Assembly (NCBI GenBank): GCA_037893245.1
Contig: JBAIAA010000078.1
Span: forward strand, 1,178,001 to 1,242,000
Length of the DNA: 64,000 nucleotides
Source of the DNA: Crossaster papposus
Taxonomy: Eukaryota > Echinodermata > Asteroidea > Velatida > Solasteridae
Direction: 5' to 3'
A program made the translations under genes and the position numbers. Below, in pieces: positions 26,386 through 58,989 of the stretch (its first letter is position 1; each line of letters starts with the position of its first letter). Below the pieces are notes generated by a model, which was given only the letters and a program-made list of their open reading frames with translations, was not told the origin of the DNA and did not search any database.

Positions 26386-28087
26386 AACCGTTAGACTATA
26401 GACCAACAGTCATCAGGTTCCAATATGTACAACCTTAATTTGAATGTGTGTACTCGACATAGAACGGTTGGAAGTCGGCTCTTCAGTATTGAATTTGTCA
26501 GAAAATGTATCAAAAGGTTGATCATTCCATTTAAACAAAATAAAGAAACAGTCCTCAACATTCTCGTATTAAAAAAAACCTTTTCATTCGCAATATAAAA
26601 TTAGCAGTAAATGTTCAATAAAATTACTAAGTTCGGAGTTCAAAAATCACATCGCTTGCTAAACTTACTGAAATATAAGTGCAAAAAGCACAAAAACACA
26701 GAAAAGTAAAGGTAGCACTTAAATGACTGAGAAGAATAGAATACAAATAGTTTACGTTTTTACATGTAGCTTAAAACTTGAGTCATTTAAGTGCTACTTT
26801 ACTTTTCCATGTATCGTAGGTCTATGTTAACTTCGAAAACATTGAGCTTGATGGCATTTTCCTAATGATTTCAGCAAGCGTGCATGTTTTATCTTTCATT
26901 ACAACGAAATGTAAGCTTAAAGGGAAAGTATACCATTTGTCATTATCCAAAAAGTAACTAACCAAATTATTGTTCAAAACTTACTTGATGTTAAGATATG
27001 CATGACTCTAAACTCCTTGTGAAATTATTCCTTCTGGCATGCAAGTCCAAAAAAGCAACTACTAAATGTACATTTAGTTCAAAATCGAAATCCTGGAAAT
27101 GTATTTTTTTTCCAGAATAAAAGGATTCACAAAGCTAAAACAAGCACCGAGATTTAAACTATAAAAACTTTTGCGGCTCCAAACAATACAAAAATGCACA
27201 ACTGACAACAGATATACAATAACTTTAAAAAAAGGGACGGATTTTATGAGGCACTTCCATTTGTACAGTTTCATGTTATCCACATGACAGAAATTGTGAG
27301 ATATATATACATCTCTGAAAGACAGTGACAATTTCGAAGATTGAATCCCAAAGATTCACCTTTCAAAAATAAAATAAAATGGACGGAAATAAATTAAGAA
27401 ATTATATACTTATCACAAGTACAAATTACATTTAAATGGAAAGAATCCCCAAACCCTCCTGCCAAAATAAAGACAAATTATAATATGTTACACAGATTTC
27501 CCCACTACAACTCCTATGGACTAAAAATGACACAATTATACACTAAAAAATCAGCATATGTGTTATACATTTATACTAAATTATATTAATTAACTCAAAC
27601 GCAATTACAATAGATAAATATTACACAGGTGTGCAATGTACATTCGAACCAAAATATCATTTTAATAGTCATACAGCCTTGAGTACTAATGAGGCCAAGA
27701 ATAAAACTTGGACTTTGGATTTATAACTTTGGATTTTTATATCTTTTTCAAGTTTTCGTAACTCAAAACAAAACGTTTTAACTCAACAAAAATAGTGTTG
27801 ATCAAGAGATTAAAGTTGGGATTACAATTGTAATTTCGTTATCACGACTTTAATCTCGTTACCACGACTTTAATCTCGTGATCACGACTTCAATCAAGAT
27901 TTATTTTACAGAAATACAGAAATACAGAAAAACATAAATACTTTTCTAAGTACATGTTTATTACGTTTATCTCATAATCATATCATATCAAATCATATAC
28001 AAAAACGTACATAAGCACAAAAAACATATCACTAAAATCACACAGCTAAAAGCAAACATTCTAAGTAGCACATAAGCACACAGTCTA
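26386..28087. other. Intergenic, no gene seen
   Basis: The duplication with 58.8-58.9 kb ends near 26450. A short tandem run of CACGACTTTAATCTCGT units lies at 27838-27895. Otherwise AT-rich and featureless apart from the hairpin at 26699. Confidence 0.5.
26699..26808. repeat. 110-bp hairpin
   Basis: AGAAAAGTAAAGGTAGCACT and following bases at 26699-26727 are complementary to 26781-26808. Possibly a small foldback element; no target duplication found. Confidence 0.6.
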
Positions 28088-28360
28088 CACTGTAAAAAAT
28101 ATATGTAATTTAACAAAGAATTGTTAACAGATCTTCATTGTAATTTACTTTTACAGCCCTTTTGATGTAGAAATTACTATTTTCCACACATTAAATGTAT
28201 TTTAACGGAATTTTGTATTTTTACAGCGTAATTTGTATAAATAGTAATACATAGTAATTTGTTTGGTTAAAATACGTGTGTTGATGTTAAATTTACAGGA
28301 AATGTGATGTTTTATCAATATATGTAATTTCACTGAAAAAAAAGACAATTTAACAGATCA

Positions 28361-29007
28361 TTATACTTGGAAGCAATTAAAATGTAGAACAAACATATCT
28401 TAGTTCTTTGCTGCAGCCAAAAGCAGCCCTTTATTTGACCAAAAACTTCTTCAAACAAATTCAAACATATATATATGATGAAGGTTCATCTCAGTGACCC
28501 CACCATGGTATAGCTGCGGGCGGCTCACCAGCGTGATGCCCGACTTTTACTTGGACCGACAGGGTCTCTTTTTTTGGTTCATCTCAGTGACCCCACTATG
28601 GTATACATGCGGGCTACTCACCAGCGTGATGCCCGACTTTTAAATGGACCGACAGGGTCTCTTTTTTGGGTTCATCTCAGTGACCCCACTTGGACCGACA
28701 AGGTCTCTTTTTTGGGTTCATCTCAGTGACCCCACTTGGACCGACAGGGTTTTTTTTTTTTGGGTTCATCTCAGTGACCCCACTTGGACCGACAGGGTCT
28801 CTTTTTAAATTAAACTGTTATGATTTAACTTCAATGTGATCTTAACACAGATGTGCTGTTCAATCGTGGTATGGCTGGATCGAACAATATAATCTCTCGG
28901 GGAACAGCAAGAGAGATTGCAAGTCTGTGTAATAATATACATACTACCTTTGACTACAAAAGTTTTACAAAAAACAAACTACTGGCTGTCTGAATCCCGC
29001 AATTTAG
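28361..29007 (-). repeat. Ngaro split direct repeat B2
   Basis: A 647-bp copy of 29510-30156, same orientation, with only scattered substitutions. Contains a minisatellite of roughly 45-50-bp units with TTCATCTCAGTGACCCCAC and GGACCGACAGGGTCTC (28484-28805). Confidence 0.9.
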
Positions 29008-29063
29008 TTAAGGCAGACAGCCACTCAGGCCATTTAAGGCGGAATGAACGGGGAGGAGGTGGG

Positions 29064-29511
29064 ATAACAAAAAGTTTAAGAAGTTTTGGTCAACAATTTT
29101 TTCTGAGTTGCTGATAGCTGCAACCAAATTGGCGGCCCGAATGCCTCGTGTTCTGGGTTAAATACCCAAACTCTTCGGACTGTCTTTTCTTCTCATTGGT
29201 CAAGTCAGGATATCTTAAGTTCCCCATTGGTCAATCTTACCTATTAATTTGCATATCTACCAGATATATCCTTATATGGTAAGGAATTTATTTTCCCCCT
29301 TCTTCTTGCGCAACTTTCTAAACGACCAAGCCACGTTTCTTAAAAGATAAAATATACCCGTCCGAAGGGGGGGGGGGGGGGGGTATTATTGCTGGTTGTG
29401 CAATTTTTCAGAACGACCTTAGAAACGTTTTTTGCCTACGACGCCAAAAAGAGTTTAGGCTTTGTGTGCCCCAAGTATAACGTATTTTATCTTTTATGGA
29501 TAAAATTAATT
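29064..29511 (-). repeat. Ngaro split direct repeat A2
   Basis: Copy of 36724-37167, starting ATAACAAAAAGTTTAAG and ending GGATAAAATTAATT. The G run near 29367 is slightly longer than in A1. The end merges directly into B1. Confidence 0.9.
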
Positions 29512-30156
29512 ATACTTGGAAGCAATTAAAATGTAGAACAAACATATCTTGGTTCTTTGCTGCAGCCAAAAGCAGCCCTTTATTTGACCAAAAACTTCTT
29601 CAAACAAATTCAAACATATATATATGATGAAGGTTCATCTCAGTGACCCCACCATGGTATAGCTGCGGGCGGCTCACCAGCGTGATGCCCGACTTTTACT
29701 TGGACCGACAGGGTCTCTTTTTTTTGGGTTCATCTCAGTGACCCCACTATGGTATACATGCGGGCTACTCACCAGCGTGATGCCCGACTTTTAAATGGAC
29801 CGACAGGGTCTCTTTTTTGGGTTCATCTCAGTGACCCCACTTGGACCGACAAGGTCTGTTTTTTGGGTTCATCTCAGTGACCCCACTTGGACCGACAGGG
29901 TCTCTTTTTTGGGTTCATCTCAGTGACCCCACTTGGACCGACAGGGTCTCTTTTTAAATTAAACTGTTATGATTTAACTTCAATGTGATCTTAACACAGA
30001 TGTGCTGTTCAATCGTGGTACGGCTGGATCGAACAATATAATCTCTCGGGGAACAGCAAGAGAGATTGCAAGTCTGTGTAATAATATACATACTACCTTT
30101 GACTACAACAGTTTTACAAAAAACAAACTACTGGCTGTCTGAATCCCGCAATTTAG
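29510..30156 (-). repeat. Ngaro split direct repeat B1
   Basis: Matches B2 (28361-29007) over 647 bp, ending at CCCGCAATTTAG in both. Same internal minisatellite. Confidence 0.9.
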
Positions 30157-30284
30157 GCCAAACGCATAGCGTCCCAAGGGAAAGACAGCCCCCAAAACAT
30201 CACACAACACTATCTATTTATATTAGTAGTTGTGTGATTACGCTAGGCGCTATTGTAACTAATTAAGTCCGAAACATATGTACA

Positions 30285-30788
30285 TTATACAAAGGCCGAA
30301 ATGGCTTGGCACAGGTTATCACGGAATATGCGATTGCCCACCGGTGACAAATGTATAGCATCAAACCTATACAACGCGGCCTCAGTCCACTTAAACTGTG
30401 GATGGTGTAAATTACTAACCCCCAGCCAACTCCCTTGCGACCGCGCCCATCGATTGAGCGTGCGCCGCTTCTTTTCCATCCCGCTTTGCGACCGAGCCCC
30501 AAAATAGTACAGACGTGGTAATAAATCTGACCATATCAATGTGGTATGCGGGAATTGCTCGGCACATGTGCGCATGGATAGGACTAGGCGTTGTCTGAAA
30601 GAAAATTCGTCGACCTCCACCAGGTCATTCGTTCCCAGATGAATAATCAGGATTGACAGGGGAGAATCAGGTATACTTGTCAACAGCTGTGGTAAATCAC
30701 CTAGGTGGGCACCGCTTAGACCACGCCACATCACTTTCATTGGAAGATTTAAAGAACCTTCGGCCCCATGCACAATGGAATCTCCCAC
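30285..30788 (-). CDS. Ngaro SGNH/GDSL hydrolase-like protein
   Basis: Last gene of the Ngaro element. SGNH blocks are clear: GDS near residue 2-4 (serine nucleophile), GTND at 52-55 (block III) and DAIHLSPVGN at 143-152 (block V, Asp and His of the catalytic triad). Known Ngaro elements often carry such a hydrolase; its substrate is unknown. There is no ATG: the codon at 30788 is GTG and the frame stays open upstream to 30857 without one. It may be expressed by splicing (a pyrimidine-rich stretch ending in TAG lies just before the GTCCAG at 30804-30799) or as a fusion with the recombinase. It is in a different frame from the recombinase, whose stop is at 30871. The catalytic residues are intact. 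Confidence 0.8.
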   Translation of the reverse strand: MGDSIVHGAEGSLNLPMKVMWRGLSGAHLGDLPQLLTSIPDSPLSILIIHLGTNDLVEVDEFSFRQRLVLSMRTCAEQFPHTTLIWSDLLPRLYYFGARSQSGMEKKRRTLNRWARSQGSWLGVSNLHHPQFKWTEAALYRFDAIHLSPVGNRIFRDNLCQAISAFV

Positions 30789-30870
30789 TATCCATACTGG
30801 ACCTATTAGGTAAATGACAGCAAATAACTGGGACTTAAGATAAACGTTTAACTGTGATTAATCAAGTGTT

Positions 30871-31092
30871 CTAGACGCCTGGCCAGGGAGAAATGGGCAG
30901 AGGACGGATATATGTATTGACCGCGTCCGAGCGCCAGCGACCCATAGCACGAATGTTTGTTTGAGGGACCCCCATTTGATATGCCGCCGAGGCCGCCCCT
31001 ATGCGCAAAGAATGACCTTTAATGTGGTCAGCCGGTATGTTATTAAATGCCAGTGCTTTCTTCAATACCCCGTTAAACTGATAGCGAGTGAT
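30871..31092 (-). pseudogene. Ngaro tyrosine recombinase, C-terminal piece
   Basis: About 73 codons that complete the recombinase interrupted at 31093. HSLR supplies the HxxR pair and GRWRSDAVNTYIR holds the conserved W/H position and the tyrosine nucleophile. The reading frame matches the N-terminal piece exactly if the inserted element and one copy of the AT duplication are discounted, so the gene was intact before that insertion. It ends in TAG at 30873-30871. Confidence 0.85.
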
Positions 31093-32716
31093 GCTAGGAG
31101 TCCACTGGGCCTCGCCAGTTCGCGCCAGTTTGCGCCAATGCAATTTGCCGTGGCGCCTAGCGTCGCCAATAAGGTGCCTAGTGGCGTGTAGTGGCTCAAA
31201 CTGCCTCCCAACTGGCTCGTGGTGGCCCGTAACGGCACAAAATTTGAATGTGGCGGCAAGAAAATTTCAAAATGTTTGAAATTTTCGTCGCGCCACTTGC
31301 ATCGAGCAATCAGCGCCAAGTGTCCGCCAAGTGGCACCAAATGGCGCGAACATATCGCCCTTTGGCGCAAACAATCCGCCTATTGGAATCCACTGGAATG
31401 TAATGGCGCGCGCCAAGTTGCGCCATATTTAGTAGAGATGTTGTTCATACATGCTAGGAGTCCACTGGGCCAGCGCCAGTTGGTGCCAGTTCGCGCCAAA
31501 GATTATGTGATTGGCGCGTAGTGGCTCGCTGTGGCGCCGAATTAATGTCCGCTCGGCATGTGTCGCCAAGTGGAATAAACTGGGTGCCATATGGCGTGCG
31601 CCAAATGCCACCCGGCTTACTCCAAAATGTTGCGCCAGTTTGCGCCAGTTCGCGCCATTACACGGCCATTTGATTCCAAAATTCACCATGTTGGCGCCAT
31701 TCGCGCCAATAGACGGCTACTTTGCGCCACTTGGTGATTAGTTTGTGCCAAAGGTCGCCAAATTGGTTTGAACTTGCCGCCGCTTGGCGCTACTTGCCGA
31801 CTATATAAATACCGGCCATCGGCTACCTGGTTCAGACCCTCCTCAGCTGCTTTTATAGGCGGCAAGTAGCGCCGACTGGCGGGCAACCAGATGGCATTTG
31901 CGCGAAGTAGTCACCAATCGGGTGCCGTTTGGCTCGCGCCACTGCACATTTGGCGCGCTTTGGCGGGCTATCCGCCTCTGTTGGAATTATTTGGCGCGCG
32001 CCATTACATTCCAGTGGATTCCAATAGGCGGATTGTTTGCGCCAAAGGGCGATATGTTCGCGCCATTTGGTGCCACTTGGCGGACACTTGGCGCTGATTG
32101 CTCGATGCAAGTGGCGCGACGAAAATTTCAAACATTTTGAAATTTTCTTGCCGCCACATTCAAATTTGGTGCCGTTACGGGCCACCACGAGCCAGTTGGG
32201 AGGCAGTTTGAGCCACTACACGCCACTAGGCACCTTATTGGCGACACTAGGCGCCACAGCAAATTGCATTGGCGCAAACTGGCACCAACTGGCGCTGGCC
32301 CAGTGGACTCCTAGCAACAGCAGCTGAGGAGGGTCTGAACCAGGTAGCCGATGGCCGGTATTTATATAGTCGGCAAGTAGCGCCAAGCGGCGGCAAGTTC
32401 AAACCAATTTGGCGACCTTTGGCACAAACTAATCACCAAGTGGCGCAAAGTAGCCGTCTATTGGCGCGAATGGCGCCAACAGGGTGAATTTTGGAATCAA
32501 ATGGCCATGTAATGGCGCGAACTGGCGCAAACTGGCGCAACATTTTGGAGCAAGCCGGGTGGCATTTGGCGCACGCCATATGGCACCCAGTTTATTCCAC
32601 TTGGCGACACATGCCGAGCGGACATTAATTCGGCGCCACAGCGAGCCACTACGCGCCAATCACATAATCTTTGGCGCGAACTGGCACCAACTGGCGCGGC
32701 CCAGTGGACTCCTAGC
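31093..32716. mobile_element. Composite motif-array element inserted in Ngaro recombinase
   Basis: The 19-bp end GCTAGGAGTCCACTGGGCC occurs four times: forward at 31093 and 31453, inverted ending at 32315 and 32716. This gives an A-B-A'-B' structure in which A' (about 31852-32315) is the inverted, longer version of A (31093-31425) and B' (32318-32716) the inverted version of B (31453-31851). All parts are made of TTGGCGCCAA and TGGCGCGAAC-type units. AT on both sides (31091-31092 and 32717-32718) fits a 2-bp target duplication. Long frames inside (up to 111 codons) exist on both strands because of the inverted repeat and are not genes. Confidence 0.8.
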
Positions 32717-32718
32717 AT

Positions 32719-33417
32719 AAGGGGGGTACAGTTAAAATGACAAAAATATGAACCTGCATGATTGGGGCGTACCCGAGCATATGTGAGCAGTGCTGACACG
32801 GGACAGAGGAAAACATTATCGGACGGCTTTAGACATACGATTTGCGGATCACCATGTTGATTATTTTTACTCTGCTTGAATGAAATGGTAACATGACATT
32901 GGGTATCGCGGTAAGAAAATTCTACATCCGAATCAGTAATCACTGAAGGTTGAGTGTGAAACCGAGAATTTGCCGTGAACTCCCCGATACGCATAAAACC
33001 AAAAAATGCACTTAGAAACGCGGCGGAAAACATCTTTGCCTCGTAGAGAGATGAACACACATGGGGAAGCGACTGCACGATTTGATTTAGCATAGGCAAA
33101 GAAACGGGTTGGCGAGAATCGCGCGAGGGGCGTGTGCGACGGCACCCCTCGAGTAATTTGGAAACTAGAAAATCCTTAGTTGGGTCAGGCCAGCCTTGTA
33201 ACCTGTGTTTATATTCAACTGCTGACACGTAAGTCGCAATTGTAGATGGGGAAATTGATTGTAATGACAGCCAAGCTATAAACTGTCGGATCTCATATGT
33301 CTTCGCGGCGCGCCCCTCTGATATGCGTTGTTGGCGAAACCGACAAAATGATGCCCAACCTGTTGCGTATGTTTTATGAGTACCTGGTGCTATTGAAGCG
33401 TCTAACAGCCGGCGCAT
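32719..33417 (-). pseudogene. Ngaro tyrosine recombinase, N-terminal piece
   Basis: Starts at ATG 33417, eight bases after the RT stop and in another frame. The first 233 codons include the SAM-like DNA-binding part and the box I arginine in FMRIGEF (R143). The frame then runs into the inserted element at 32716, whose translation adds unrelated residues. The remaining catalytic residues are on 30871-31092. In Ngaro elements this enzyme recombines circular DNA copies into the genome. As it stands this copy cannot make an active enzyme. Confidence 0.88.
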
Positions 33418-33425
33418 TTCATTCT

Positions 33426-35027
33426 CTACCAGATCGCTGGAAGGTGAGGTAAGGGGGTTGGGAGTGGACTTGCTCGTGGGGCCAGCTCGCGGAAACGGGA
33501 CATCTGGAAACGGGATAGAGAGTCGGCAATTTCATTGTGTACCCCCGGCACATGCAAGGCTTTAAACACAATATTATATCTAAGACATTCAAGGACAAGT
33601 AGGCGCACCAGATGCATTATTCTTGGGCATGGAGATGATTGCTTGTTTATAATATGGACAACAGCCATGTTGTCAGTGTTAAACCGCAGTTTTTGGTTTT
33701 GGAAACTCGACGCCCAGCCAAGGATAGCAACAACTATGGGAAACAGTTCGAGGAATGCAATGGATGGCGGGTTCGTTAATAAATCGTCCGACCATCGACC
33801 TTGCATCCATTGACCGTCAAAATACACCCCAAAACCTATGCTACCGGACGCGTCCGTGTACAAAGCAAGTGTTTCATTATCCACCCAGTGCCTACTTGAA
33901 AATGCCGATACGCCATTAAAATGCACAAGAAATTCTAACCACATGAGTAAATCCAGACGCGCCCCTTGGGAGATACGAACTTTGTGATGTGGCCGTTTCA
34001 AGCCTATGGTGAGGTTGGTTAAACGCCGCAAAAAGGCACGACCCGGGGCGATAGCCCTGCACAAAAAATTGAGGGAACCCAATAACGACTGCATTGACAC
34101 CAGCGTGGCCTTTGTCTTACTCAAGAAGGCATGAATTTGACCACATGTTTTGGTAACTTTCTCCTGTGGGACTTTAACTTGGGCGCGAACAGTATCGATT
34201 TCCAAACCTAGATATTTAATCGTTTGCACTGGCCCTTCAGTTTTTTCGTGCGCTAAGGGGACGTTTAGCTTGGTACACATAGTTCGGAAAACATCTAATA
34301 ACTCTGCACACGAGGAGGACGAGTTGCCCACGAACAAAAAATCATCCAAATAGTGAGTGACCAAAGATACATCAGCCATACGCTTAACTTGAAATTCCAA
34401 AAATGAACTAAACTTCTCGAAAAGCGAACAAGAAATGGCACAGCCCATTGGCATACATTTGTCAAAGTAAAAATGGTTGTCAAAGAAAAACCCCAGCAAT
34501 TCATAATCAGCAGGTGAAATTGGCAACAAACGAAATGCAGACTTAATGTCGGCTTTCGCTAACCAAGCCGATTCCCCTACGGTCATAACCAAATCCACAG
34601 CCTCGTCAAACGAGGCATAGTGAACTACACAATGTTCCCTGTCAATAAATTCATTGATCGAATTACCGGCAGGGTAAGACAGGTGATGAATGAGTCGAAA
34701 GGTATTAGGCATACTCTTGGGGACTAAACCTATGGGGGAACATTGTAGATTAGAAAAGGGGCGGTTTTGATAGGGGCCTGCAATCCTGCCTAAACTGATC
34801 TCCTTGGCAAGTTTTTCTTTGACCACCATTGGGCGTTCTGACGCCGTAGCTAAACAATTTGAATCACGGGGCATACGGGGACCCTCATAACCCAACGAAA
34901 AACCATATTTAAATCCATTACTTAGTATGCGACAATCATCTGCAATTGGGTATTTTGTCAGCCAGTTATCTAACACTGTTTGGTTAATGGGCGTGGGGGT
35001 AACAAACGGGGTTTTGGGTTTGCTCAA
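33426..35027 (-). CDS. Ngaro reverse transcriptase / RNase H
   Basis: Encodes about 533 residues. RT motif A is KADIKSAF (D160), and the catalytic box is YLDD (226-229). RNase H has TDAS (D392), the FLEL glutamate (E427), TDN (D452) and ADS (D502), so all four metal ligands are present. The protein resembles DIRS/Ngaro RTs and lacks protease and integrase. There is no ATG at the start: the frame opens after the Gag TGA (35036-35034) and is in the same frame as Gag, with the first ATG only at residue 52, within conserved sequence. Expression probably needs read-through of that stop (UGA followed by C). The TAG stop is at 33428-33426. Confidence 0.92.
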   Translation of the reverse strand: MSKPKTPFVTPTPINQTVLDNWLTKYPIADDCRILSNGFKYGFSLGYEGPRMPRDSNCLATASERPMVVKEKLAKEISLGRIAGPYQNRPFSNLQCSPIGLVPKSMPNTFRLIHHLSYPAGNSINEFIDREHCVVHYASFDEAVDLVMTVGESAWLAKADIKSAFRLLPISPADYELLGFFFDNHFYFDKCMPMGCAISCSLFEKFSSFLEFQVKRMADVSLVTHYLDDFLFVGNSSSSCAELLDVFRTMCTKLNVPLAHEKTEGPVQTIKYLGLEIDTVRAQVKVPQEKVTKTCGQIHAFLSKTKATLVSMQSLLGSLNFLCRAIAPGRAFLRRLTNLTIGLKRPHHKVRISQGARLDLLMWLEFLVHFNGVSAFSSRHWVDNETLALYTDASGSIGFGVYFDGQWMQGRWSDDLLTNPPSIAFLELFPIVVAILGWASSFQNQKLRFNTDNMAVVHIINKQSSPCPRIMHLVRLLVLECLRYNIVFKALHVPGVHNEIADSLSRFQMSRFRELAPRASPLPTPLPHLPAIW

Positions 35028-35033
35028 ATCGAG

Positions 35034-36512
35034 TCATGGACGAGGGTTGACTGGTGCAGTATGGGCAGCGTGAGAACCCGCAGAATTGGTATGCGGTGTA
35101 CTAAAATTTCCCCCTTTCACTGCATTGGTCATTGGAACTCTGGGTTGACGGGTCCTGGATTGTGTCTGCGCGTGATACGTAAATGCGTTACGCGGTGCAG
35201 TGGAAATTGAACCCACTGACGAGCATTGAGCTGCTCCGTGGCCCGAGCGCATACATTTACTACATGTATGCGCGTATCTACATCGAGGAAATGTACAACC
35301 CTGGTTATTGTTAAAATTAAAGCAATGGCCGGTCCCGCGGCCGGTTTTGGACGCCGGGGCCCACCCTTGTGTGTTACCTAACCGATTGCCCGATTGGTTA
35401 GTGGTTACCGGGACCGCAGCAACCGTCACCCAGAGTTCCATGTCAATTTCCCCCCATGAACGGGAGGGGTCAATCTCCATCTTTAACCGAAACTGCTCGT
35501 CATATGTTCGCCACCCGTAACCGGGAAACTGTCCTGACGCCATACGAATAATTTCACAGTATTTTAATAGCTGTGCATAGCTCTGGGTGTGTTGGTCCAG
35601 ATAAATGGACATAAATGTGTGAAAGGCCGATTGCCATATAGAGAAGGATTCGATGCGCCTACGCGATGGGCCGGGTTTCCTGAGGACCAGGTTGTCCCCT
35701 TCCATCCCGAAGGTTAAATTTGACTGATCTGTCCGCGAAAGTACGGCATGCGCCGTGTCGTTATAAAGTGGGGCCAGATCTATGTACTCCCCTGACCGAA
35801 TTTTGTCTTTCGTGGATTGCGAGACATGAAACCCTAACGCTGCACACGACTTTCCTATTTGAAATAATGGCACTGGGCGGACATCCGCCCCTAGCTGAAT
35901 TGCACTGATTGGAATGGCAGTATGAGAATCATGAACATTGTACTCACCCCCACCCCTTACTCCGCTAGTGCTAGTACTAGGACCCGAGAACGGATCAGTG
36001 TTATTGTTCATGTTGTTGTCATGGTGTAGCAGTTCATTTTCATCATGATGGCTGCGAGGAGGATGCACCTCCACGACGGAGGTTGACGGCTGGGTCTCTG
36101 GGTGCAGAAAATCCGGATCTGAGACCGAGCTTGGGTTTCTTCGGGGTCGACCGCGGCCACGACGGATTGGCGGCACAGGTTCCTGGTGTAGGGCAGGCAC
36201 AGCTGCCCCGCGTCTGCTGCCTCTCGTAGACGGCTCCTGGTGCAGGGCAGGCCCTGCCCCGCGTCCTCTTCCTCTCGCAGGCGGCACAGGTTCTTGGTGT
36301 AGGGCAGGCACAGCTGCCCCGCGTCCGCTGCCTCTTCCTCTCGCAGGCGGCTCCTGGTGTGGGGGAGGGACAGCAGCCCCCCGCCCTCTGCCCCTCACAG
36401 ACGGTTGGCGCTTCCGATACTTCTTTGGCGGGGGCACGCCGTCGTCAACTGTATGTGGCAGAGCTGTGCGACCGGGTCGGCGGCTAGCTACGGCGTTATT
36501 TCGGTACGGCAT
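35034..36512 (-). CDS. Ngaro Gag-like protein with CCCH and CCHC zinc fingers
   Basis: I start at ATG 36512; the frame extends slightly upstream without another ATG. Numbering below counts from 36542. The N-terminus (residues 49-135) is rich in RGRGRG with repeated AVPALHQEP units and a canonical AT-hook-like RRGRGRPRR (127-135). The central region (about 205-375) looks globular. Near the C-terminus a CCCH finger (C407, C416, C421, H425; spacing 8-4-3) is followed directly by a CCHC zinc knuckle (C427, C430, H435, C440; spacing 2-4-4). These should bind element RNA. It ends with TGA and continues in frame into the RT gene. The domain assignments are direct motif readings; roles are inferred from retroelement Gag proteins. 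Confidence 0.82.
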   Translation of the reverse strand: MPYRNNAVASRRPGRTALPHTVDDGVPPPKKYRKRQPSVRGRGRGAAVPPPHQEPPARGRGSGRGAAVPALHQEPVPPARGRGRGAGPALHQEPSTRGSRRGAAVPALHQEPVPPIRRGRGRPRRNPSSVSDPDFLHPETQPSTSVVEVHPPRSHHDENELLHHDNNMNNNTDPFSGPSTSTSGVRGGGEYNVHDSHTAIPISAIQLGADVRPVPLFQIGKSCAALGFHVSQSTKDKIRSGEYIDLAPLYNDTAHAVLSRTDQSNLTFGMEGDNLVLRKPGPSRRRIESFSIWQSAFHTFMSIYLDQHTQSYAQLLKYCEIIRMASGQFPGYGWRTYDEQFRLKMEIDPSRSWGEIDMELWVTVAAVPVTTNQSGNRLGNTQGWAPASKTGRGTGHCFNFNNNQGCTFPRCRYAHTCSKCMRSGHGAAQCSSVGSISTAPRNAFTYHAQTQSRTRQPRVPMTNAVKGGNFSTPHTNSAGSHAAHTAPVNPRP

Positions 36513-36723
36513 GTCCGAAGAGGTGGCCAGCAAATCTTCCACTCCTTGCTAAACGGAAGCTGTCGGGTTAGACGTGTACCAGGAGTTGTCGGATTATCGA
36601 CAAGTGTTTCGTCCACAGGTGGTTTCGTCCGGTTGGACGAACGGAGAGTTGTCCGGTTTACAGGGCCTCGAAGCGTCGGAGTTAGAAGTGAAGATAATAA
36701 CAAAAAGTTTGAAAAGTTTAAGA

Positions 36724-37167
36724 ATAACAAAAAGTTTAAGAAGTTTTGGTCAACAATTTTTTCTGAGTTGCTGATAGCTGCAACCAAATTGGCGGCCCGA
36801 ATGCCTCGTGTTCTGGGTTAAATACCCAAACTCTTCGGACTGTCTTTTCTTCTCATTGGTCAAGGTAGGATATCTTAAGTTCCCCATTGGTCAATCTTAC
36901 CTATTAATTTGCATATCTACCAGATATATCCTTATATGGTAAGGAATTTATTTTCCCCCTTCTTCTTGCGCAACTTTCTAAACGACCAAGCCACGTTTCT
37001 TAAAAGATAAAATATACCCGTCCGAAGGGGGGGGGGGGGTATTATTGCTGGTTGTGCAATTTTTCAGAACGACCTTAGAAACGTTTTTTGCCTACGACGC
37101 CAAAAAGAGTTTAGGCTTTGTGTGCCCCAAGTATAACGTATTTTATCTTTTATGGATAAAATTAATT
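36724..37167 (-). repeat. Ngaro split direct repeat A1 (5' end)
   Basis: 5' terminal repeat of the element on the minus strand, near identical to 29064-29511. Transcription probably starts in it, but I see no clear TATA box. About 211 bp of 5' leader separate it from Gag. Confidence 0.88.
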
Positions 37168-39498
37168 TTTAACAGATCTTCGTTGTAATTTACTTTTACA
37201 GCACTGTTGATGTTAAAACTACAATTTTCTACAATTTTGTTGGTGTTTTAACGGAATGTTGAATTTGTACAGTGTAATTTGTATAAATAGTAATACATAG
37301 TAATTTGTTTGGTTAAAATACGTGTGTTGATGTTAGATTTAAAGGGAAATAGGATGTTTTATCAGTCTATGCAATTTCACTGTAAACAAATGACAATTTT
37401 ACAGAGACTTTTTAACCGATCTGCATTGTAATTTACTTTTATAACAGTTTTGATGTAAACATTACAATTTTCCACACATTTTCTGTGTTTTAATGGAATT
37501 TAGTACTTTTACAGTGTAATTTGTATAAATAGTAATACATAGTAATTTGTTTTTGTTAAAATACGTGTGTTGATGTTAAATTTGCAGGAAATGTGATGTT
37601 TTATTATTATATGCAATTTCACTGTAAAAAAATGACAATTTAACAGAGACTTTTTAACAGATCTGCATTGTTATTTTTTTTTTACAGCACGGTTAAAGTA
37701 AAAATTACATTTTTTCGCAAAATGTCAGTGTTTTAACTGAAGTTACAAACATGTTAAATCATTTTGCCAAAATACATGTGTTGATGTTAAATTTTCAGCA
37801 TTTTGATGTTAAAATTACAATTTTAAAAGTGTTCATGTTTTAACGGAATTGTGTGATTTACAGTGTAATGTGTAAAAATAGTAAAACATGATAAACATTT
37901 TGCATTATAATACGTTATAATACACGAAAATGATGTTTTACAGAGAATGGAACGGATCTTCATTAGGCCTATAATTATTTTGACCAGCTGTGATGGTAGT
38001 AAATTTAACTAGTAGTAAACGTTCCTACTCTCCAAATGCAAAAGAGTGAAAACGCCACTCTCTCGCCCGAGTGTTAACGGTTTAACTCTTTTGTGAGTGG
38101 GATTCCTTCTGATTCGAGTAAAGAAATGCTACAAAGTCGTCTAGGGGTAATCACTTTTTATCGAGTGAGCCACTATACCACTCACTTTTTGGAGTGATTC
38201 CGATGACCACTCTTTTTAGAGAGAGCGCCCTATATTATTTGCCTATTCGCGGTATATGTGCGGCGAATGCAGCAAGCATTTTACATGCTCGAATTTTACA
38301 AACAGCCGTTATTCCAACTTGCATTGAACTTTCTATTAAATTTGCATTCAAAAATTCGAAATAAAGATTCGTTTGTTTCCGACCCACACTGCAAAAACTG
38401 TGGTGTTAAACATTTAACACCAATGTTTTTAAAAATCTTTTGGAATGAAAATTGGTGTTAAAATGGAGTAAAATGATTCTTGAAGTATTAGCTTCAAATC
38501 AAGTACTGGTGTTAAGTACCTTTAGTGTTAAATTTGACCTAGTGCGCATGCGTTTGTGAAATAAAGCCCTCTGATTGGTCGATAAGAAATTATGGGATAT
38601 CGCTGTGTTAACAATAGTCGATGTTAAATTGTTGTATTTAGTCCAAAAAATCATGTTTTTACCATAATAATATGTAATTATTTAAACAATTCCATGATTG
38701 AATTTTGATTTTTGTGCAAACATAGTTAAAAATTCGCGTTACATTTTACTCGTTTTCAAATTTTGACATTATTCATACAAAAATAGCTGTGACTTCATCG
38801 CGGACAAAAAAGCGCAGTATAAAACTAACTAACGGCATTGGCTATGTTTGTAGTACGTATTTAGTAGGTAATATATAACAGGAATAGGTTATTATTGTAT
38901 GGATGTGTAATGTGTAATAAGTTAGTTCTTGGTATTATTTCATTACGTAATTTGTCCATGCAGTTAATATGTACGCAATTATAGTGTTAAAATACAACTT
39001 CTGATGTAAACAAAGTAAAAGGTGTAAGGTAAATGCTAATTACATTTTTCCTGCATAACAAAATTACAGACGAAAGTAATTTTACAAATAAGTGCACTCT
39101 TAATTTACGCAAATTTTGCAAAACGTTTTTACAACTTTTTATGTAAAAAAAGATAACGGTGTAAGGTAAATGCTAATTACAGTTTTCTTCATAAACAATT
39201 TACGGACGAAAGCAATTTGACAAATAAGTGCAAATTTTGCAAAACGTTTCTACAACTTTTGATGTAAAAACAAAAAACAGCACATTGTCTGGCAACGCTG
39301 CTGCCAACACTTGATGTAAAATAACGGACCTTTTTTTACAGACAATAGTAATTGTACAAATAAAATGTATAAATATTTTACGCAAATGTTTCAAAACCTA
39401 ACTACAACATTTGATGTAACAATAAAAAACAGCAAAATGTCTGGCGTCTCTGCTGCCATCACTTTTGATGTAAAATAACATATATATTTTTTACAGTG

Positions 39499-45231: not shown

Positions 45232-45938
45232 TTATTCTACTACTGACGAACAACCAAAAAGCCTCAACATGTGCTGCTCAGCAAGAACCAGAATCCGGTC
45301 TCCTGTCACTGCTATACCTATGACCGGTTTCTCAGTTTCAAGCACCGAGCACCCATCAAAGCTGCCAGCTTGGGTGTACTGATGAACATGCACCAGTTGC
45401 TCTTCAGACCTGACAGAGAGAACCACGTAGATGCGGTCCCTGCCGTCGCTGCAAAGGCCGAGGCAGTTTTGGCCCTCTACTTCCGGAGAGCATTCCGCAG
45501 TTGGGTCGATAGACATGAACGTATCCCCGCCGATCTTCAGACCTTGCACCCTAGCCGGACTCCTTGCGCCGATTAGTACCTGCTCCTCCCCAATGCAAGC
45601 CAGAAAATCAGGCTGGATTTGGACAGGCTGGATTTGGGCAGGCGTGATTAGGACGGGCTGCCCGTGATTCACAAAACCTGTGGAGATGTCACATACCATT
45701 AGCTGGGTCTGCATGCCTTTACATTTGGCACTGATTAAAAACTTGTCCTTCCCGTAGCTCGTAGTAGCAATGCATTTCGAAGTTTCTAGGACATAACATA
45801 ATTTACAAGTTTTGGTCGGCTTAGAAGATTTGGTTTCAAACCAGTAGATCTTAGGTTTTGGGTTTCCTTTAACACCCACGAAACCCCCATTCGAATGGGA
45901 TGATACGTAGACTGCTTCTTCCTCGCATCCAAAATAAT
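45232..45938 (-). CDS. TRIM copy 2, terminal coding exon
   Basis: Counterpart of 380-1095. The AG acceptor is at 45940-45939, the first two bases complete a phase-1 codon, and the frame runs to TAA at 45234-45232. The propeller-like blades are conserved, and the PVQIQ repeat region has changed to TPAQIQPVQIQP. The last few residues differ from copy 1 because a small indel shifts the stop. Joined to 51195-52797 it would make about 769 residues. The intron is 5.3 kb, four times longer than in copy 1 because of an inserted element. Confidence 0.75.
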
Positions 45939-46238
45939 CTAGAAATGAAAAAACAAAAACAAACTGTTAATAAACGGGCCAGAAAAGCTTCAAAGCTTGC
46001 TTCAACGGCTATACAGGGAGTGCAAACATATTATGTTTGTTTGTTTTAAAGCGAATTCATTTGACACACCAACAACCATGTTCAGGCAAAATTACTTAAC
46101 GGTACGCGATAATTGCCAGACAGCTGAATTGTGTTGTATTTAAGGTAGCCTTGGATGCAAGGCTGTGCTATATCTGCAGCTTACGTACCATTGGTTAACG
46201 TACACACTGCATGCAGTCTAGGCTGCATTGTACACACT

Positions 46239-46646
46239 GGGTGCGTTCGTTTAGCTCACCCGGGGCGCCCCGGATAAGCCCCGCGCCGTTCTTTTTAGCT
46301 CTGACGTGTACTCGTGGCTAGGCACGGGTCAGCCACCAGAAACCCTGCTCCCGTAGCAGGGTCTCTGGTGGAATGACGTCACACGCATGCGTAGTCGAGT
46401 CGACGACGTCTAGGGCGGCGTAAAGATGGCGGAAAGGTAAATATTTTGTTGCAAAATATTCCGATTTTTCATTTATTTTGTAGTTTTGTTGTTGTTGTAG
46501 AATTGTATTTGAAATGCATGCAACTAAAAAATACAACCATGCAGAACATTTAGTGGAAAACACGAGTGCGTTCGATTAGCTTCCCCTCGTGCCATCCCCC
46601 GAGTGTTAACCCTAACTCCCCCGGGTAAGCTAATCGAACGCACCCA
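46239..46646. mobile_element. Nested MITE, GGGTGCGTTCG ends
   Basis: Inverted ends GGGTGCGTTCG with AGCT/TTAGCT following, flanked by ACT on both sides. A second, shorter inverted pair (46563-46646, GAGTGCGTTCGATTAGC) uses the same right arm, so a truncated copy seems nested. It lies inside the 46148-50018 element. Confidence 0.6.
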
Positions 46647-48061
46647 CTGTAAATGTACTGTAAGGGGCGCCCGGTCACCCATGTAGAGTCTAGCCAGCTC
46701 CACAGTCTTTACGCGTTAGTATACTTCCGGGTTTTGTTGTTAGGTTAATGATGCGCTGCTTTCGAACCACGGGATCGGATTGCATCGTCACGTTGAAAAG
46801 CATTTGCAAATTCTAAGGAGCTGATTGGACATTCTAAAATACGATAATTCAGAAGTTGATGCAAACCAACAGTCGGTGATATGTGATTGGCCCTTAAGAA
46901 ATACACATAAATTGATAGTGATAATTTGCATACGAACCCCCCCCCCCCCCCCCCCCCCAATTCGCCTTTGATTTGTAAAACCCTGAAGTACCAACGCGTC
47001 AAGGCTGTTGAGCTAGCTAGACTCTATGGGTGGCCAGGAAGCCCCGTACAGTACACATGTACAATGTACAGTTTGTGTACAATGCAGCCCACATCACTGA
47101 TCCCATTCCAGTCGGCAAAACTATGTTTCACAAGTTATAACAAGTAAGAACAAACGCGTGTCTTTGCGAGGTAAAATGAAATATCCAAACACGTGTTTAA
47201 AATGTGTTCTAGACGCACCACAACCAGTGTTAATTGCCACTCCTTGAAAGATCTTTCAAGATCTTGAAATAAAATGGCGCCAGTTTACTTTACGGCTTTA
47301 TGTAGCTATACGTGTACATGCATAATGTAAATGTGCATGTACATGTATTTTATTAAGTTTACACTAGGTTGTATACTGATTTACATAGGCTTGAAAGATC
47401 TTGAAAGATTTTGGGTGCTGATCTTGAAAGAAATGAAAATAATGGTCGCATTACGCTATCGTGTCACATTAGTTTGAAATATATGCGCTCTGGTACCACG
47501 TGATCCGAATTCTCCAATCACAACTCAGGTCATAGGCCATTGTATCATTGCTAATCAAAACAATCATGGCGTCGCCCATGTCACGATCGTCGAGTACTCC
47601 GTGATAAAACCAGTTGTTTTGTTCACTTACAATAATGTTACAGCCGAGAAAATCTGTGTGAAAATGACCTTGAATTGGCAGAGAAGTTGGTGAGCCTAGA
47701 CCTGCTACTGTGTGCTAGAGAACTGTCGTACGAGAATTGGTCGTGAAAACTAGCCAAACAGTCGTGACACTATACGCATCGGGTTTACGCTAAACGTTGC
47801 GTGTTAGTTTCGCTGGATTATTGACGTCTCACATTCACAACTGCAATATGCCTGGCAGCGCGTAAACGTGCAGAGACACTGTCGGAGAAAGCACATTTGC
47901 CTCTAAAATCTCAGTCTCGGCCTTGTCGGGTTCGCTGTCATCATCGGGTCGCGTATATTGCCGCCTAGATCAGTACTTTGTGTCTATGTATTATTGGCAA
48001 GGAACCAAGCAAGAGGTTGAATGAGTTACCCAATAATCTCGGACAGGCCAAAACAGTGAAG

Positions 48062-48666
48062 ATGCAGGTAGGTCATGTACATGTATAGGCTATATAGAAA
48101 GGTCACAATTAACAATCTAATCTGCTTCCCCAGCTTCCCAGATTGTGTCTACATCGAATTTTGAGAGGCTGTTTTACCTTACATACATGTAGACAAAATA
48201 AACCTAAAATTCATTTCTCTTACCTTGGCCCCGGAAAATCTGCTTCCGAAGTTCTGGTAATTACAAGATCTACCCCGATTTTGACAGCCCAGAGGGGGGT
48301 GGGGTTGGTTGGGGGGTTGGAAAATAACCCCTGCTTATGCTTCAGTGCAGTCCAGCTTCATCACCATTACCAAACTACACAAATGATGACCCAAGTGGGG
48401 CTATATTGACCTTTTTTACATGTTTTTTCTCGTAACAGGTCGTTCAATAAATTCATTATTGATTATATATTTTACCCCCTCTTGTTTATCACCAGATTCA
48501 ACCTTTTTATGCAGTTGCTAATCAAGAAACAAGCAGTGATGATGGCAGATCTCTAAAGAAGCATTTACTCAGATCCAGTGCCAGCCTACCATCTATAAGC
48601 TCCACAGTTCGAAGCACGTCCTACCAGCCATGTACATCATCTGCCAAATATCGCATGGGTTGTTAA
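48062..48666 (+). CDS. Candidate two-exon coding fragment, unrecognised
   Basis: An ATG CAG at 48062-48067 is followed by a strong donor (GTAGGT). A pyrimidine-containing stretch ending CACCAG precedes 48496, where the same phase continues for 56 codons to TAA at 48666. The open sequence is serine-rich (RSSASLPSISSTVRSTSYQP) with no domain I recognise. The frame is also open for about 30 codons before the ATG. CpG-rich DNA at 47575-48060 resembles a promoter or 5' UTR. Because the unit has an intron and lies inside a TIR element, it could be a host gene 5' end captured at DNA level. It may be truncated: the last codons coincide with another possible donor. Evidence is splice signals and frame only. 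Confidence 0.3.
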
Positions 48667-50023
48667 ATTTGTAACACTTCAGTGATTTTTGTATTTGTTC
48701 TAACGGAAAAGTTGAGAGAATTATGCTCGAACTGGTTGATGATATTTAAGACACGTCAGGAGCATTTCCTTTTTGACACTTTTAATTATTTTCATTTAGT
48801 TAACTGAATTTGGTTTCAACGCTCTTTTTAATTGAAAAGTGTAACCCAGTTTAAACTTATTGGAACTACACACTGAAAAATCCATTATGGATTATATTAT
48901 TGTACTGAAAATGGGCATTCACACAAATTTATTCAAATTGTGCATACAATTCACTCTCTGTCATTTCAAATGTTATTGCAACATTGACTTTAATCACAAT
49001 AATTGTTTTGAGACAATTCAGTATGCCATTGATTACAGTATGCTCAGTAAGGTTAATACAGATCCAGTGTAAAATAAAACTGTAGGGTTGTCATGCGATT
49101 CTGTTTATTTTATTGTCACTTTGCAATGTTATGTTTCATAAGTGAGCACAGAAGATTGTGTAGTGCTGACAAGAATATGACAAACAATAGATTTTGTGTG
49201 GAACTTATTTTTGATTTGTTTCATTATGTATTTTATTACAAGCTTGCCTTACACATGAAACCTATTCAATTGACCCCTTTAAACAAAACAGCTGATTACC
49301 CATCCCCCCTCCCTCCAAAAATATTAATAATATTTTTTTCTTTTTAAATTATAAAAACTAATGCAGATTGAATAAGCCATTTTATTTATCTATCAAATAT
49401 CAAAAAAACGTATTTAAATAGATCAATCTGGGCACCTATCAAGCCAAAGGGAGTGATTTACAATTACTTGTAGACAGGGGTCGGTCAAAAGTTATATTTG
49501 CCACAAAAAACGTTGATGTCCTGTGATGTACATGTGTTATACAGGGCAAGTTGGTTTGAGTCAATATACATTAAGTGGGGGGAAAAAGTATGGGGCGAAG
49601 TGGCTTTGGGGCAAAATTGTTATGAAAACTAGGCGAGAAAAACCAACTCGCCCCATGCTAGTTTCGCCCCATTACATTTTTAAAGTGAATAACTCAAGTT
49701 CGACTGGATATTTTTTGGAGAACTTTTAGCATAGTATTTTAAACAGCTACTAGAAACTATATATGCCTTCAAAAAGTAGACCCATGGGGGTCGAAACGAA
49801 ACTCGTTTTCTAGGCATCTTTTCAGCCACACCATACGGCCTACTGGCGGAGATGGACACAAATGTTGTTTACAAATCAAGACAAATAATCATTTTCGGGG
49901 CGTTTATATTTTAATGGGCGTTTATATTTTTGTGGGCGTTTATATTTTTGTTCAGTGTAGTTTTGCCGACTAGTTGGTACATTATGTTGCAGATACAGCA
50001 CAGCCTTGCATTCAAGGCTATAT

Positions 50024-50390
50024 AGGTAGAATACACCATTGGTAATAGCTTGAATTCTCCTGAATGGGTGGATTTGGGGGATTGTATTAAAATATCGTTT
50101 AACTGAACTGTTGTTATGTTGGCCACGCATGCCGAGAAAAGCAAGAAAAACGACGTTCGTTTTAAACCGGCGTCCGGCAGTGCATGGTTTCTTTTGTTGT
50201 TCTTGGGTTTCTTCGCAATCGCCACCTGGCGATTTTTTTGAATAAAATATCGATTTTTCGGAACAATTACAGGACATCTAGCGCAATCATTTTGCTGGAT
50301 GCCTGGAATCATTATTTACTTTCAAACAAGCAAGATATTTATTAATAATTCGGTAGTAATTTTTTTCGATATCTGCAAATGGTGTATTTC
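50024..50390. mobile_element. piggyBac-like MITE, copy B (orthologous to copy A)
   Basis: Collinear with 1468-1863, including the GCAAGAAAAACG and CGGCAGTG segments. It occupies the equivalent place in the duplicated TRIM gene, so the insertion predates the duplication. Its left TTAA and first bases were separated from it by the 3.87 kb insertion, and the right border is degraded. Confidence 0.6.
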
Positions 50391-51194
50391 TGTGGTTTGA
50401 CAGCACAAATATGCAGAGTCTACCGTTTTGCATGTTTATGGGGAACACCAATCTGCCCATAGCTTCAATGCACACACTCGATGCCAAAAAAAAACCACAC
50501 ACACTGTGTGCATAATATCATTTGTTCGGTTACATTAACTGGCCCCAAAAGCGTAGGAATGTTAACAAAGACATACATGTATTAATACTTGTTAACATAG
50601 TATTTAATTTGTGTGAAATAATATGCACTTTATCTCAACTTTAGGTCACTTTTTATGTAAGCTATTACTAGTATAGTAATGTAAACACGCACTTTGGAGT
50701 TTACAGTTCAAGTGAAAACTGCACTTTGATTTGACAAATTGAAATACAAAATGTGTCACATTCAGTAATTGAGGTTAGCTTTGTTTGCTATTATATTTCT
50801 TTATATTATATTTCAAAAGAAAAAACGGGCATATGTAGAGATTATCTTATTGGCTGATCATTTGACATGATCAATACAAACCTGCTTCTATAGGAATGAT
50901 TGTCACTTTTGAAACTGGATCTATGACCATTGAAATTACAATAACTCCGCTCGGCATCATTGTATCTCAACAATCGAGGTGTCGAAATACGCAGAACAAA
51001 ATTATGCACTGGGTTATTGGCTTCGATTAATCCATACCCCTTCGGGCCGTTAATTATTGGATAATTATTGGATCATTTTTGAAGGGGAACTCAAAGTTTG
51101 GTTTTTTTTCGATTGTTTGTGTTTTTGTGGCAGAGTAAAGATTAAATAATAAATAATAAAACAAATTGGTAAATTAAGAATTCTTTTTTTTTAC

Positions 51195-52797
51195 CCAAAG
51201 GCGTAATGTACTCCCACGTACGCTTCCCAGATGTATTGTACACAACAACAGCATCCCCGCATCCGACCAATACTTCGTCTTTGCCAAATGCAGCGATGTC
51301 TGCGATTGTAACATCTTTCTGCGAACTATAGTTTGGGTGTCCCCGTATAGCAGCGGTCTTTGAAGTACAGCAAGGCTTGATATCCCCCACTGATGACCAG
51401 GTCGCACCGACAACTACTCTACCTAACTCAATAGTGCTACTTTCCAGGAAAGAGAGCTTCTGATAACCACTGGGGATCTTTGGTGGAGCTTTTTCAAGAA
51501 GTGAACGGATGTCGCTGTCAATGACCAACTGAAGACTAAGAAAGTCGGCGTCGGAGGCAGACGTCACCAGGTTGTTGGCAGTTTCCAACGCGTGACGCAT
51601 TTGCTCTATCTCGGTACCCACGACTTTATTTGAATCCTTGAGGAACTTTTGTTTCTTGCTGAATATTATCTGAATCTGTGTCAAAAGCTTTTTCTGTCTG
51701 GCTGCGACTTTAGATTTAGCATCTCTAGCCTCATTTTCAGAAGTGTTCGTAAACTGTTGAATTACAGTACGAACCGTTTTGTCGGATCTCAGTAGCTTTT
51801 TTATACTATCATTCAAGGCACCGAGGTCTTCATCGATGGTGGAAAACATATCTTGTGCAAGTTTAGGGTTCTTATTTTTTGGAAGTGACTTGACTTTAAA
51901 CATGCATTCCGTGAGAGAAACTCCGTTTTCTTGTAGTGTTTGACTGCGGTAGGTACTTCGACTGGAGATGCCTTCACGGACAGTTCTCAGATTTTCGTCA
52001 ATTTGTTTCTCCTCAGCCGAAGCTTGCCTCGTCACACAAAGTTCAGCCTGTGACACAGACTGAACCAATTCAGAGTCAATTTGTTGAATGTTCGTTTTGG
52101 ATTTATTAAAGAGCGACATTTGATGTTTAAGTTCTTGTATCTGCTTTTGAACGTTCTTCCTTAAGCGAGGTGCAGCGTCGTCAATCGTGGTATAGTTATG
52201 GTTGCGGTGCTCCACAACTGTGCAATCTCTACAGATCAATTCTTTGCAGGTCTCGCAGAAGAATCTCTTTTTCTCTCCCTGGTGTTTTTGGCAAAGGGGC
52301 TCCATTTTTCTTTTTCTTTGAAGGTCGGCCACACCCGTCCGCAGTGTATCGAGTGCCAGCACCTCGTGGTGGGCTGTGACTGCAATACGTTGATGGCCAG
52401 CTTGGCACTGCTGGCAAAGTAAGAAGGGACAGTCCATGCATCTCGACTGCGCCTCCCGCTGGTCCTCGCAAAGCTCGCAAAGAATCTTCAAACCTCCCGT
52501 TTGCGTCAATTTCTCCTTTAGAGCGAAATCGTCAACGATCTCCTTCAGATGGAAGTTGGTCTTGAGCCCAACGACTCCGTCAGGTGGGAGTGAGGAATCT
52601 CGTCGGCAGATCGGACAAGAAACCACCGACGTAATTTGGAGTTTCTTCTGGTACGCCAGAAGACACTCCTCGCAGAAGCTGTGAAGACAATTGAGGATCT
52701 TTGGTGTCTGGTACCTATCGTGGCAGATGCCGCACTTCAATTGATCTCGGCTGATGTCACCCAAAACTGTAGCCACTGTATCACCACCTGTAGCCAT
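51195..52797 (-). CDS. TRIM copy 2, first coding exon: RING, two B-boxes, coiled coil
   Basis: Paralogue of 2401-4015. Starts at ATG 52797, with an AG acceptor just upstream as in copy 1, and ends in phase 1 at the donor GTAAAA (51194). All RING and B-box zinc ligands are present. The segment from the end of the RING through B-box 2 (about residues 71-201) is identical in protein to copy 1 although the DNA carries about nine silent changes in roughly 430 bp. The RING carries about twelve replacements in 60 residues (for example HLECGICHE to QLKCGICHD). The coiled coil has moderate changes, and the region just before the exon end (the TKTANRRKTRRP area in copy 1) is rewritten. It is likely an E3 ligase with altered E2 choice if expressed. 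Confidence 0.87.
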
Positions 52798-53390
52798 CTT
52801 CACCTACAAAAAATGAAATGAAAAGGCATTTAAGGGACATTCTTTGTCAAATCAACCCCTTTAAATTAGTTCATATTTGCCTTATAGGGTCTTTGAGCCG
52901 ACTCTCGGTTAAAATTATAGCCCAACATAATTGTAATCTAAAGAAATAGATATGTGAAGTAGAAAAGGGTTTAGCCATAATTTGTACAGTTAAACATGAT
53001 TTCAAAAATAATATAAATTAATTCTAGAAAAATATGAGTTGAAACAGTGCTGTCACTGTCGAGACTGGCATATGTGAGTGGTACGGTTCGAAAGCGTATT
53101 ACTCTTCACCTTTCTAACAAATATTCCCAAAACAGCCAGGGTCACTTGAAACGTACAGGGGGTGTCGATCGATAAAGTTAAAGATTCATACCTCATTTGA
53201 CAAGGCTAACTAATAATTTTAAATCTGAATTAATCAATAATAATTGGCAACAATCGACGCAAAAATTATCAAAGTCTCACTCAGTCTTCAATGTTATCCT
53301 AAAATTGAAAATTAAGAGATTGTACTATACGCGGGGGTGCTCTGCGATGTCGATGTCACAGGTCAGTGTATCGCTTCGCGCGCTCGATAC
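52798..53390. other. Upstream region of TRIM copy 2
   Basis: Aligned with 4016-4571; no gene. It ends in the left arm and loop of the palindrome seen whole in copy 1 (4527-4627), followed directly by the element at 53391. Confidence 0.6.
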
Positions 53391-58895: not shown

Positions 58896-58989
58896 ATACA
58901 CTCAAGGAAAAAGGAAACCACCACTGATTTGTTTTAGTTTTGCCCGAATTTTGTGAAATCAAATGTATGTGTTTGAATCGCTACAAATA

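Follow-up and report, generated by a model that had tools for sequence, protein, structure and literature searches.

A probable Ngaro-like retrotransposon of the sea star Crossaster papposus, its TT recombination core and its partial forms

A stretch of 64,000 nucleotides from the genome of the sea star Crossaster papposus (contig JBAIAA010000078.1, positions 1,178,001 to 1,242,000; hereafter, the window) contains, on the minus strand at positions 28360-37167, a repeat-bounded element that encodes a reverse transcriptase (RT) and a tyrosine recombinase (YR). To which group of YR retrotransposons does this element belong, how does it join host DNA, and how did its incomplete relatives in the same genome arise? 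To our knowledge, Ngaro elements are little studied, and, in our judgement, the accounts of how their split repeats are rebuilt and how they insert rest largely on models. From its architecture and protein domains, we assign the window element to the Ngaro-like YR retrotransposons, recently inserted and now broken, with a probability of roughly 0.88.

The element is laid out as A1-gag-RT/ribonuclease H (RNase H)-recombinase-hydrolase-B1-A2-(56-nt linker)-B2 (Table 1). The inner repeats B1, A2 and B2 all lie downstream of the recombinase, which is the split direct repeat plan of Ngaro elements, and repeat mapping bears out the order A1-ORFs-B1-A2-B2 (ORF, open reading frame) given in a preliminary description of this locus. 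The repeats pair end to end in alignments and are nearly identical, as that description had held: A1 and A2 differ by 2 substitutions over 444 aligned bases and in the length of a poly-G run, and B1 and B2 by 6 substitutions over 646 aligned bases and 4 gap columns. Chance would not be expected to produce repeats this long and this similar. A2 and B1 overlap by 3 nt (ATT); A2 and B2 do not abut, being separated by the linker. The B repeats carry 46/93-bp tandem repeats of their own (28483-28806 in B2 and 29632-29955 in B1), and the spacing of B probes differs among copies, as a changing number of tandem repeats would produce.

The RT and YR domains are encoded on one strand, RT first, as indicated by the ORF list and Pfam, with RNase H in between, recognised by motif only. 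The gag, pol and hydrolase ORFs are open over 504, 535 and 190 amino acids, respectively, in line with the preliminary claim of intact motifs, which for RNase H was followed by eye only. In Pfam, pol matched RVT_1 at 1.2e-17 and the recombinase piece before the later insertion matched Phage_int_SAM_1 at 3.4e-5; the piece behind it matched Phage_integrase (PF00589) at 7.5e-5 and 23 bits, under the cut-off of 27.1, in an ORF that extends slightly into the insertion. The catalytic residues and zinc motifs in Table 1 are what we take to be such by eye. Gag produced no Pfam match at E<=1. Searched alone with phmmer, the RNase H region found no RNase H match, which weighs against this part of the assignment; a weak match to Ty3 Gag-Pol (E 0.0031) spans the RNase H part of pol. 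Searches of NCBIfam returned merely weak RT and XerD-type matches, far under cut-off, and no relatives outside the host genome were found in the viral_contigs or genome_contigs collections.

An SGNH hydrolase ORF behind the recombinase is a trait described for amphibian Ngaro elements (PMC9210276). The nearest informative solved structure for this hydrolase is the zebrafish L2 ORF1p esterase (4c1b; residues 21-185 of 190, E 1.2e-5), and the zebrafish L2 ORF1 esterase is reported to bind negatively charged phospholipids (PMC3905857); three designed TPR chains that outrank 4c1b look spurious. Inverted terminal repeats and an internal complementary region of the DIRS1 type were not found in 27500-38000, where the 9 listed inverted pairs of at least 25 nt all fall inside the later insertion in the recombinase gene. 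The methyltransferase domain (PF05869) had no match at E<=1 in gag, pol, both recombinase pieces or the hydrolase (smaller ORFs were not scanned). The split direct repeats, the position of the hydrolase and this result in the scanned ORFs together support the Ngaro-like identity suggested in the preliminary description.

To define the recombination core, the ends of further copies were compared. A search of the 1.02-Gb host genome with A recovered at least 40 copies, scored out of 210 candidates and 93-100% identical. On the B side, all 17 host-side ends (15 distinct flanks) finish in TT, and the base before TT in the distinct flanks varies (ATT in 7, TTT in 6, GTT in 1 and CTT in 1); on the A side, AATT is kept in 25 of the 27 host-side ends (16 of the 18 distinct flanks). 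The shared core is TT, and the third base is free. The AATT/ATT core that had been proposed thus shrinks to the TT that the 15 distinct B-side flanks have in common, the ATT overlap in the window consisting of TT and one further base matched by coincidence in the target. Variation in the outer 37 nt of A is 0.0076 in 25 copies; we make no claim that this end is more strongly conserved than the rest of A, since one inner segment is equally low.

Several copies of the family are embedded in satellite arrays, which preserve the empty site next to the insertion and allow the core to be read directly. At the window site, 3 of 3 adjacent monomers fit the joined flanks in alignments that are ungapped within 5 nt of the join; at the site of the copy L021, in a 186-bp satellite, 46 of 47 monomers fit in the same manner; and at that of L023, in a 318-bp satellite, 11 of 38 do so, the best-scoring monomers among them being identical throughout the 36 nt displayed. 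At the core, two of the monomers next to the window copy have CTT and one has ATT; the core-letter tallies for the window and for L023 contain duplicate loci. Wherever a test is possible, insertion proves exact and leaves no target duplication, which holds for the full element (window), a copy of the form A-ORFs-B (L021) and a solo A-linker-B (L023). The window copy has TTTAACAGATC to its left and to its right, but the 11-bp target duplication that this suggests was rejected, the same spacing being found in 3 of 3 element-free flanking monomers.

Several observations weigh against an exact join at an invariant core. Two distinct A ends, those of L014 and L040, lack AATT. The remaining 27 of the 38 L023-type monomers are gapped within 5 nt of the join, which there falls in a run of T. 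In 47 alignments of L021-type monomers, the core reads TTT in 25, TTA in 20, TGA in 1 and TGT in 1, the 21 with TTA or TGA failing to finish in TT, and at the L017 site the single intact relative reads TTC where the flank reads TTT. Given these mismatches, the original target letters are inferred.

Several insertions of the family (L010, L016, L021, L023, L025, L026, L061 and the window flanks) are surrounded by host tandem repeats with units of about 186, 242 and 318 bp and, at C92, apparently of about 370 bp. L010, L011 and L023 apparently stand at about one place of one satellite monomer. No satellite enrichment is claimed.

The copies of A fall into several arrangements, so that the partial forms A-linker-B and A-ORFs-B are displayed within one genome. 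Of the 40 copies scored, 21 lead into the 5' leader and border a host flank on their outer side (A1 type); in 14 the linker comes next and B lies outside (A2 type or array units), and in 3 the linker comes next and a host flank lies outside, each being a solo A-linker-B; one (L028) is followed by the leader, yet has B outside, and one was not assignable. The linker is present in all 17 assigned copies that have no leader behind them. The full window-like layout recurs in L009, with an extra insert in gag, and in L028. L021, L025 and L026 have the form A-ORFs-B, without A2-B2, and L018 is an array of A-linker-B units. Six A copies (L019, L022, L024, L031, L032 and L041) have one common host flank, and the three for which longer sequence was available (L019, L022 and L024) carry the same truncated gag/pol; these six probably represent a decayed element multiplied along with its surroundings.

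The partial forms may have arisen by recombination between two equivalent A/B junctions, in the element or in a circle, or by homologous recombination between A1 and A2 or B1 and B2; recombinase action at the junctions and homologous recombination would yield the same sequences. We give even odds to the alternative that solo A-linker-B, A-ORFs-B and the arrays come purely from homologous (unequal) recombination, as solo long terminal repeats do, with the recombinase playing no part after insertion. The A and B pairs are long, nearly identical direct repeats; the units of L018 differ by only 0.7-1.5% among themselves and by 2.2-3.9% from the remaining copies in the comparison, a pattern expected of local duplication; and recombination between 5' and 3' repeats has been proposed for isolated AB repeats (PMC8547959). 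However, the B piece outside A1 of L028, truncated to about 257 nt, meets the outer end of A1 exactly at the core, which is easier to explain by site-specific joining, although deletion within a former array fits as well. It also counts against the overall account that L021, L025 and L026 have common flanks and are thus not independent insertions.

The two repeat pairs of the window copy together show 8 substitutions over 1,090 aligned bases (0.73%), which, at assumed rates of 2e-9 to 1e-8 per site and year, corresponds to an age of about 0.4-1.8 million years. The earlier characterisation of the element as young therefore stands as a fairly recent age and holds in relative terms only, as no substitution separates the repeats of L028 over 446 and 691 aligned bases. 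The L028 repeats suggest that the family was active, or its repeats were homogenised, more recently than the window copy implies.

Comparison of the window copy with L025 gave a nonsynonymous rate (dN) of 0.011 and a synonymous rate (dS) of 0.118 for pol, and of 0.014 and 0.090, respectively, for the hydrolase; dN well under dS is a sign that both proteins were under selection during the active period of the family. For pol, comparison of the window copy with the nearest copy, L009, gave dN 0.014 and dS 0.021, a ratio much higher than that against L025. The 17.5 non-synonymous and 7.5 synonymous pol differences between these two copies count against the overall account and indicate that copies drift after insertion.

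How Pol is made is a separate question, because gag and pol form a single frame interrupted by a UGA. This codon is kept in all eight copies that cover the place, and a decay mutation was rejected on this ground; a ninth match, L010, ends short of it, and as four of the eight copies, those of L021, L025 and L026, have flanks in common, five lineages remain. In the first 53 pol codons, the window copy differs from L025 by 4 synonymous and 0 non-synonymous changes, from L011 by 2 of each kind, and from L009 by none. The single frame, the conserved UGA and the selection against amino-acid change behind it suggest readthrough, and the simplest and most likely reading is that Pol would be translated as a Gag-Pol fusion through this UGA. 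We lean against, but take seriously, the alternative that Pol has its own start (an internal AUG, a separate RNA or reinitiation) and that the UGA is not read through. No stable RNA structure was detected behind the UGA (z-score -0.16), which speaks for an own start and against readthrough, and in Candida Tca2 the sequence flanking the UGA alone gave no readthrough in yeast, a warning that a gag-UGA-pol layout may use another route (PMC2194720). On the other hand, pol continues the reading frame of Gag, the AUG overlapping the UGA belongs to a different frame, and the first in-frame AUG comes only at codon 54, before which five of the six other copies compared do not differ from the window copy in any amino acid (L011 has two differences). 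A full-text literature search for UGA readthrough with DIRS elements yielded no such case by title or listing. The conserved in-frame layout poses a testable translation question.

From these features, a transposition cycle can be proposed. The element RNA would be copied by its own RT/RNase H, and the missing end sequence would be rebuilt from the joined ends in B1-A2, following a published model mentioned in PMC6681497. The product would bear the B/A junction AATT-ATACTTGG, which the recombinase would link to host DNA at an (N)TT site, leaving no target duplication; the products of such joining are present in the genome, and it is the reaction that we infer from them.

The B1-A2 junction itself contains an imperfect inverted repeat that none of 200 shuffles of the A2+B1 region matched, and as a single strand the junction folds at -22.9 kcal/mol (z-score -6.4, 0 of 200). 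Inverted repeats of equal quality are not rare in the window, whose first 58980 nt gave 85 overlapping hits, with about a dozen such places besides the junction. The TT core lies inside one hairpin arm, outside the spacer. B-end variants of L011, L015 and L018 occur without a compensating change in A, so that the support for the hairpin is purely thermodynamic. Integron attC sites offer a comparison for a hairpin recognised by a recombinase. It is conceivable, and in our view unlikely, that the B/A junction is a folded attachment site, in which a complementary DNA hairpin of at least 19 pairs would be recognised by the recombinase, the product, with two such junctions per element, would be split by it into A-ORFs-B and A-linker-B circles, and the A-linker-B by-product of about 1.1 kb would insert and build arrays alone.

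Very improbably, the element could instead be PAT-like, having lost its methyltransferase, and so resemble Ngaro in looks only: split direct repeats also occur in PAT, the repeat layout is homoplasious, and a PAT-like lineage without methyltransferase is reported in Caenorhabditis briggsae (PMC4157794), but the hydrolase ORF behind the recombinase is a feature described for amphibian Ngaro (PMC9210276), and no methyltransferase match was obtained with Pfam among the ORF pieces scanned.

The window copy is broken within its recombinase gene. The preliminary description recognised only one later insertion there; two were found, nested copies of one inverted-repeat family in opposite orientation. 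None of the six further copies that were read across this position (L009, L011, L021, L025, L026 and L028) carries the insertion, and no clear target duplication was seen around it. The inverted-repeat element at 31090-32718 has the end motif TGCTAGGAGTCCACTGGGCC.

Table 1. Coordinates in the window of the Ngaro-like element, its parts and its surroundings.
Feature	Position	Strand	Remarks
A1, 5' split direct repeat, 444 nt	36724..37167	-	host-side core TT at 37166-37167
Gag ORF, 504 aa stop-to-stop	35034..36548	-	C-terminal CCCH-like and CX2CX4HX4C motifs by eye
UGA between gag and pol, then CUC	35034..35036	-	single frame across; 8/8 covered copies
pol ORF, 535 aa	33426..35033	-	RT (RVT_1), RNase H by motif/eye; first in-frame Met is codon 54
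Tyrosine recombinase, N-terminal part	32719..33531	-	SAM-like domain; catalytic Arg, Lys by eye; overlaps pol end
Later insertion in recombinase, 1,629 bp	31090..32718		inverted-repeat (foldback/miniature inverted-repeat transposable element-like) element; second copy nested at ~31450-32316
Tyrosine recombinase, C-terminal part	30871..31089	-	HSLR, GRW, Tyr by eye
SGNH/GDSL hydrolase ORF, 190 aa	30285..30857	-	Lipase_GDSL_2 1.2e-7 (Pfam)
B1 repeat, 648 nt	29509..30156	-	46/93-bp tandem repeats at 29632-29955
Imperfect inverted repeat over A2/B1 junction	29471..29519		18/21 arm positions, 7-nt spacer
TT core at internal A2/B1 (circle-type) junction	29510..29511
A2 repeat, 448 nt	29064..29511	-
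A2-B2 linker, 56 nt	29008..29063	-	recurs in other copies
B2, 3' split direct repeat, 648 nt	28360..29007	-	host-side core TT at 28361-28362
Flanking host 242-bp tandem repeat	37168..37714		related copies left, ~28107-28359; supplies empty site

Elsewhere in the window, a perfect TTTAGGGG array of about 626 units occupies 58988-64000 and continues in L027 (C78:1237001-1247000), where it passes into TTTGGGGG and TTAGGGGG units and then into ordinary sequence. This array is an interstitial telomere-like satellite; a chromosome end was rejected, the contig continuing past the array. On the minus strand, two look-alike ORF pairs (380-4021 and 45232-52803) were recognised by eye, each with a RING/B-box (TRIM-like) ORF and a second ORF behind it, a set that points to an animal host. 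The second ORF of the 380-4021 pair, the only pair covered by the Pfam scan, had no Pfam match.

Among the known systems, DIRS-53_XT of Xenopus tropicalis, a Ngaro-like element, likewise encodes a gag-like protein, RT/RNase H, YR and an additional SGNH hydrolase ORF, and has A1 and B1-A2-B2 repeats (PMC9210276). As described there, its repeats are 236 and 152 bp, compared with 444 and 648 in the window element, and all its ORF reading frames overlap, whereas gag and pol of the window element form one frame across the UGA. Ngaro types 1-4 of the protist Cafeteria burkhardae (PMC8547959) share the A1-[ORFs]-B1A2B2 order, RT/RNase H, YR and isolated AB repeats; the word 'hydrolase' does not appear in the main text of that report. 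A Ngaro-like element near amphioxus VCBP2/5, compared here by description only, is likewise from an animal and has gag, RT/RNase and YR ORFs, in a split-repeat arrangement that its authors termed distinct (PMC2632668). According to PMC3266345, DIRS1-like elements have a 3-bp circle junction, carry NTT at both ends in 23 of 28 cases and are proposed, likewise, to insert without target duplication; unlike the window element, where no such features were seen, they have inverted terminal repeats with internal complementary regions, and a methyltransferase. The TT core fits these NTT ends and the 3-bp junction, with just two of the three bases having to match. The plan, the hydrolase in amphibian Ngaro and the isolated AB repeats are already published (PMC9210276, PMC4157794, PMC8547959); at the level of detail, this Crossaster papposus family shows a core refined to TT, a constant linker, the form A-ORFs-B and a gag-UGA-pol layout that is conserved among its copies.

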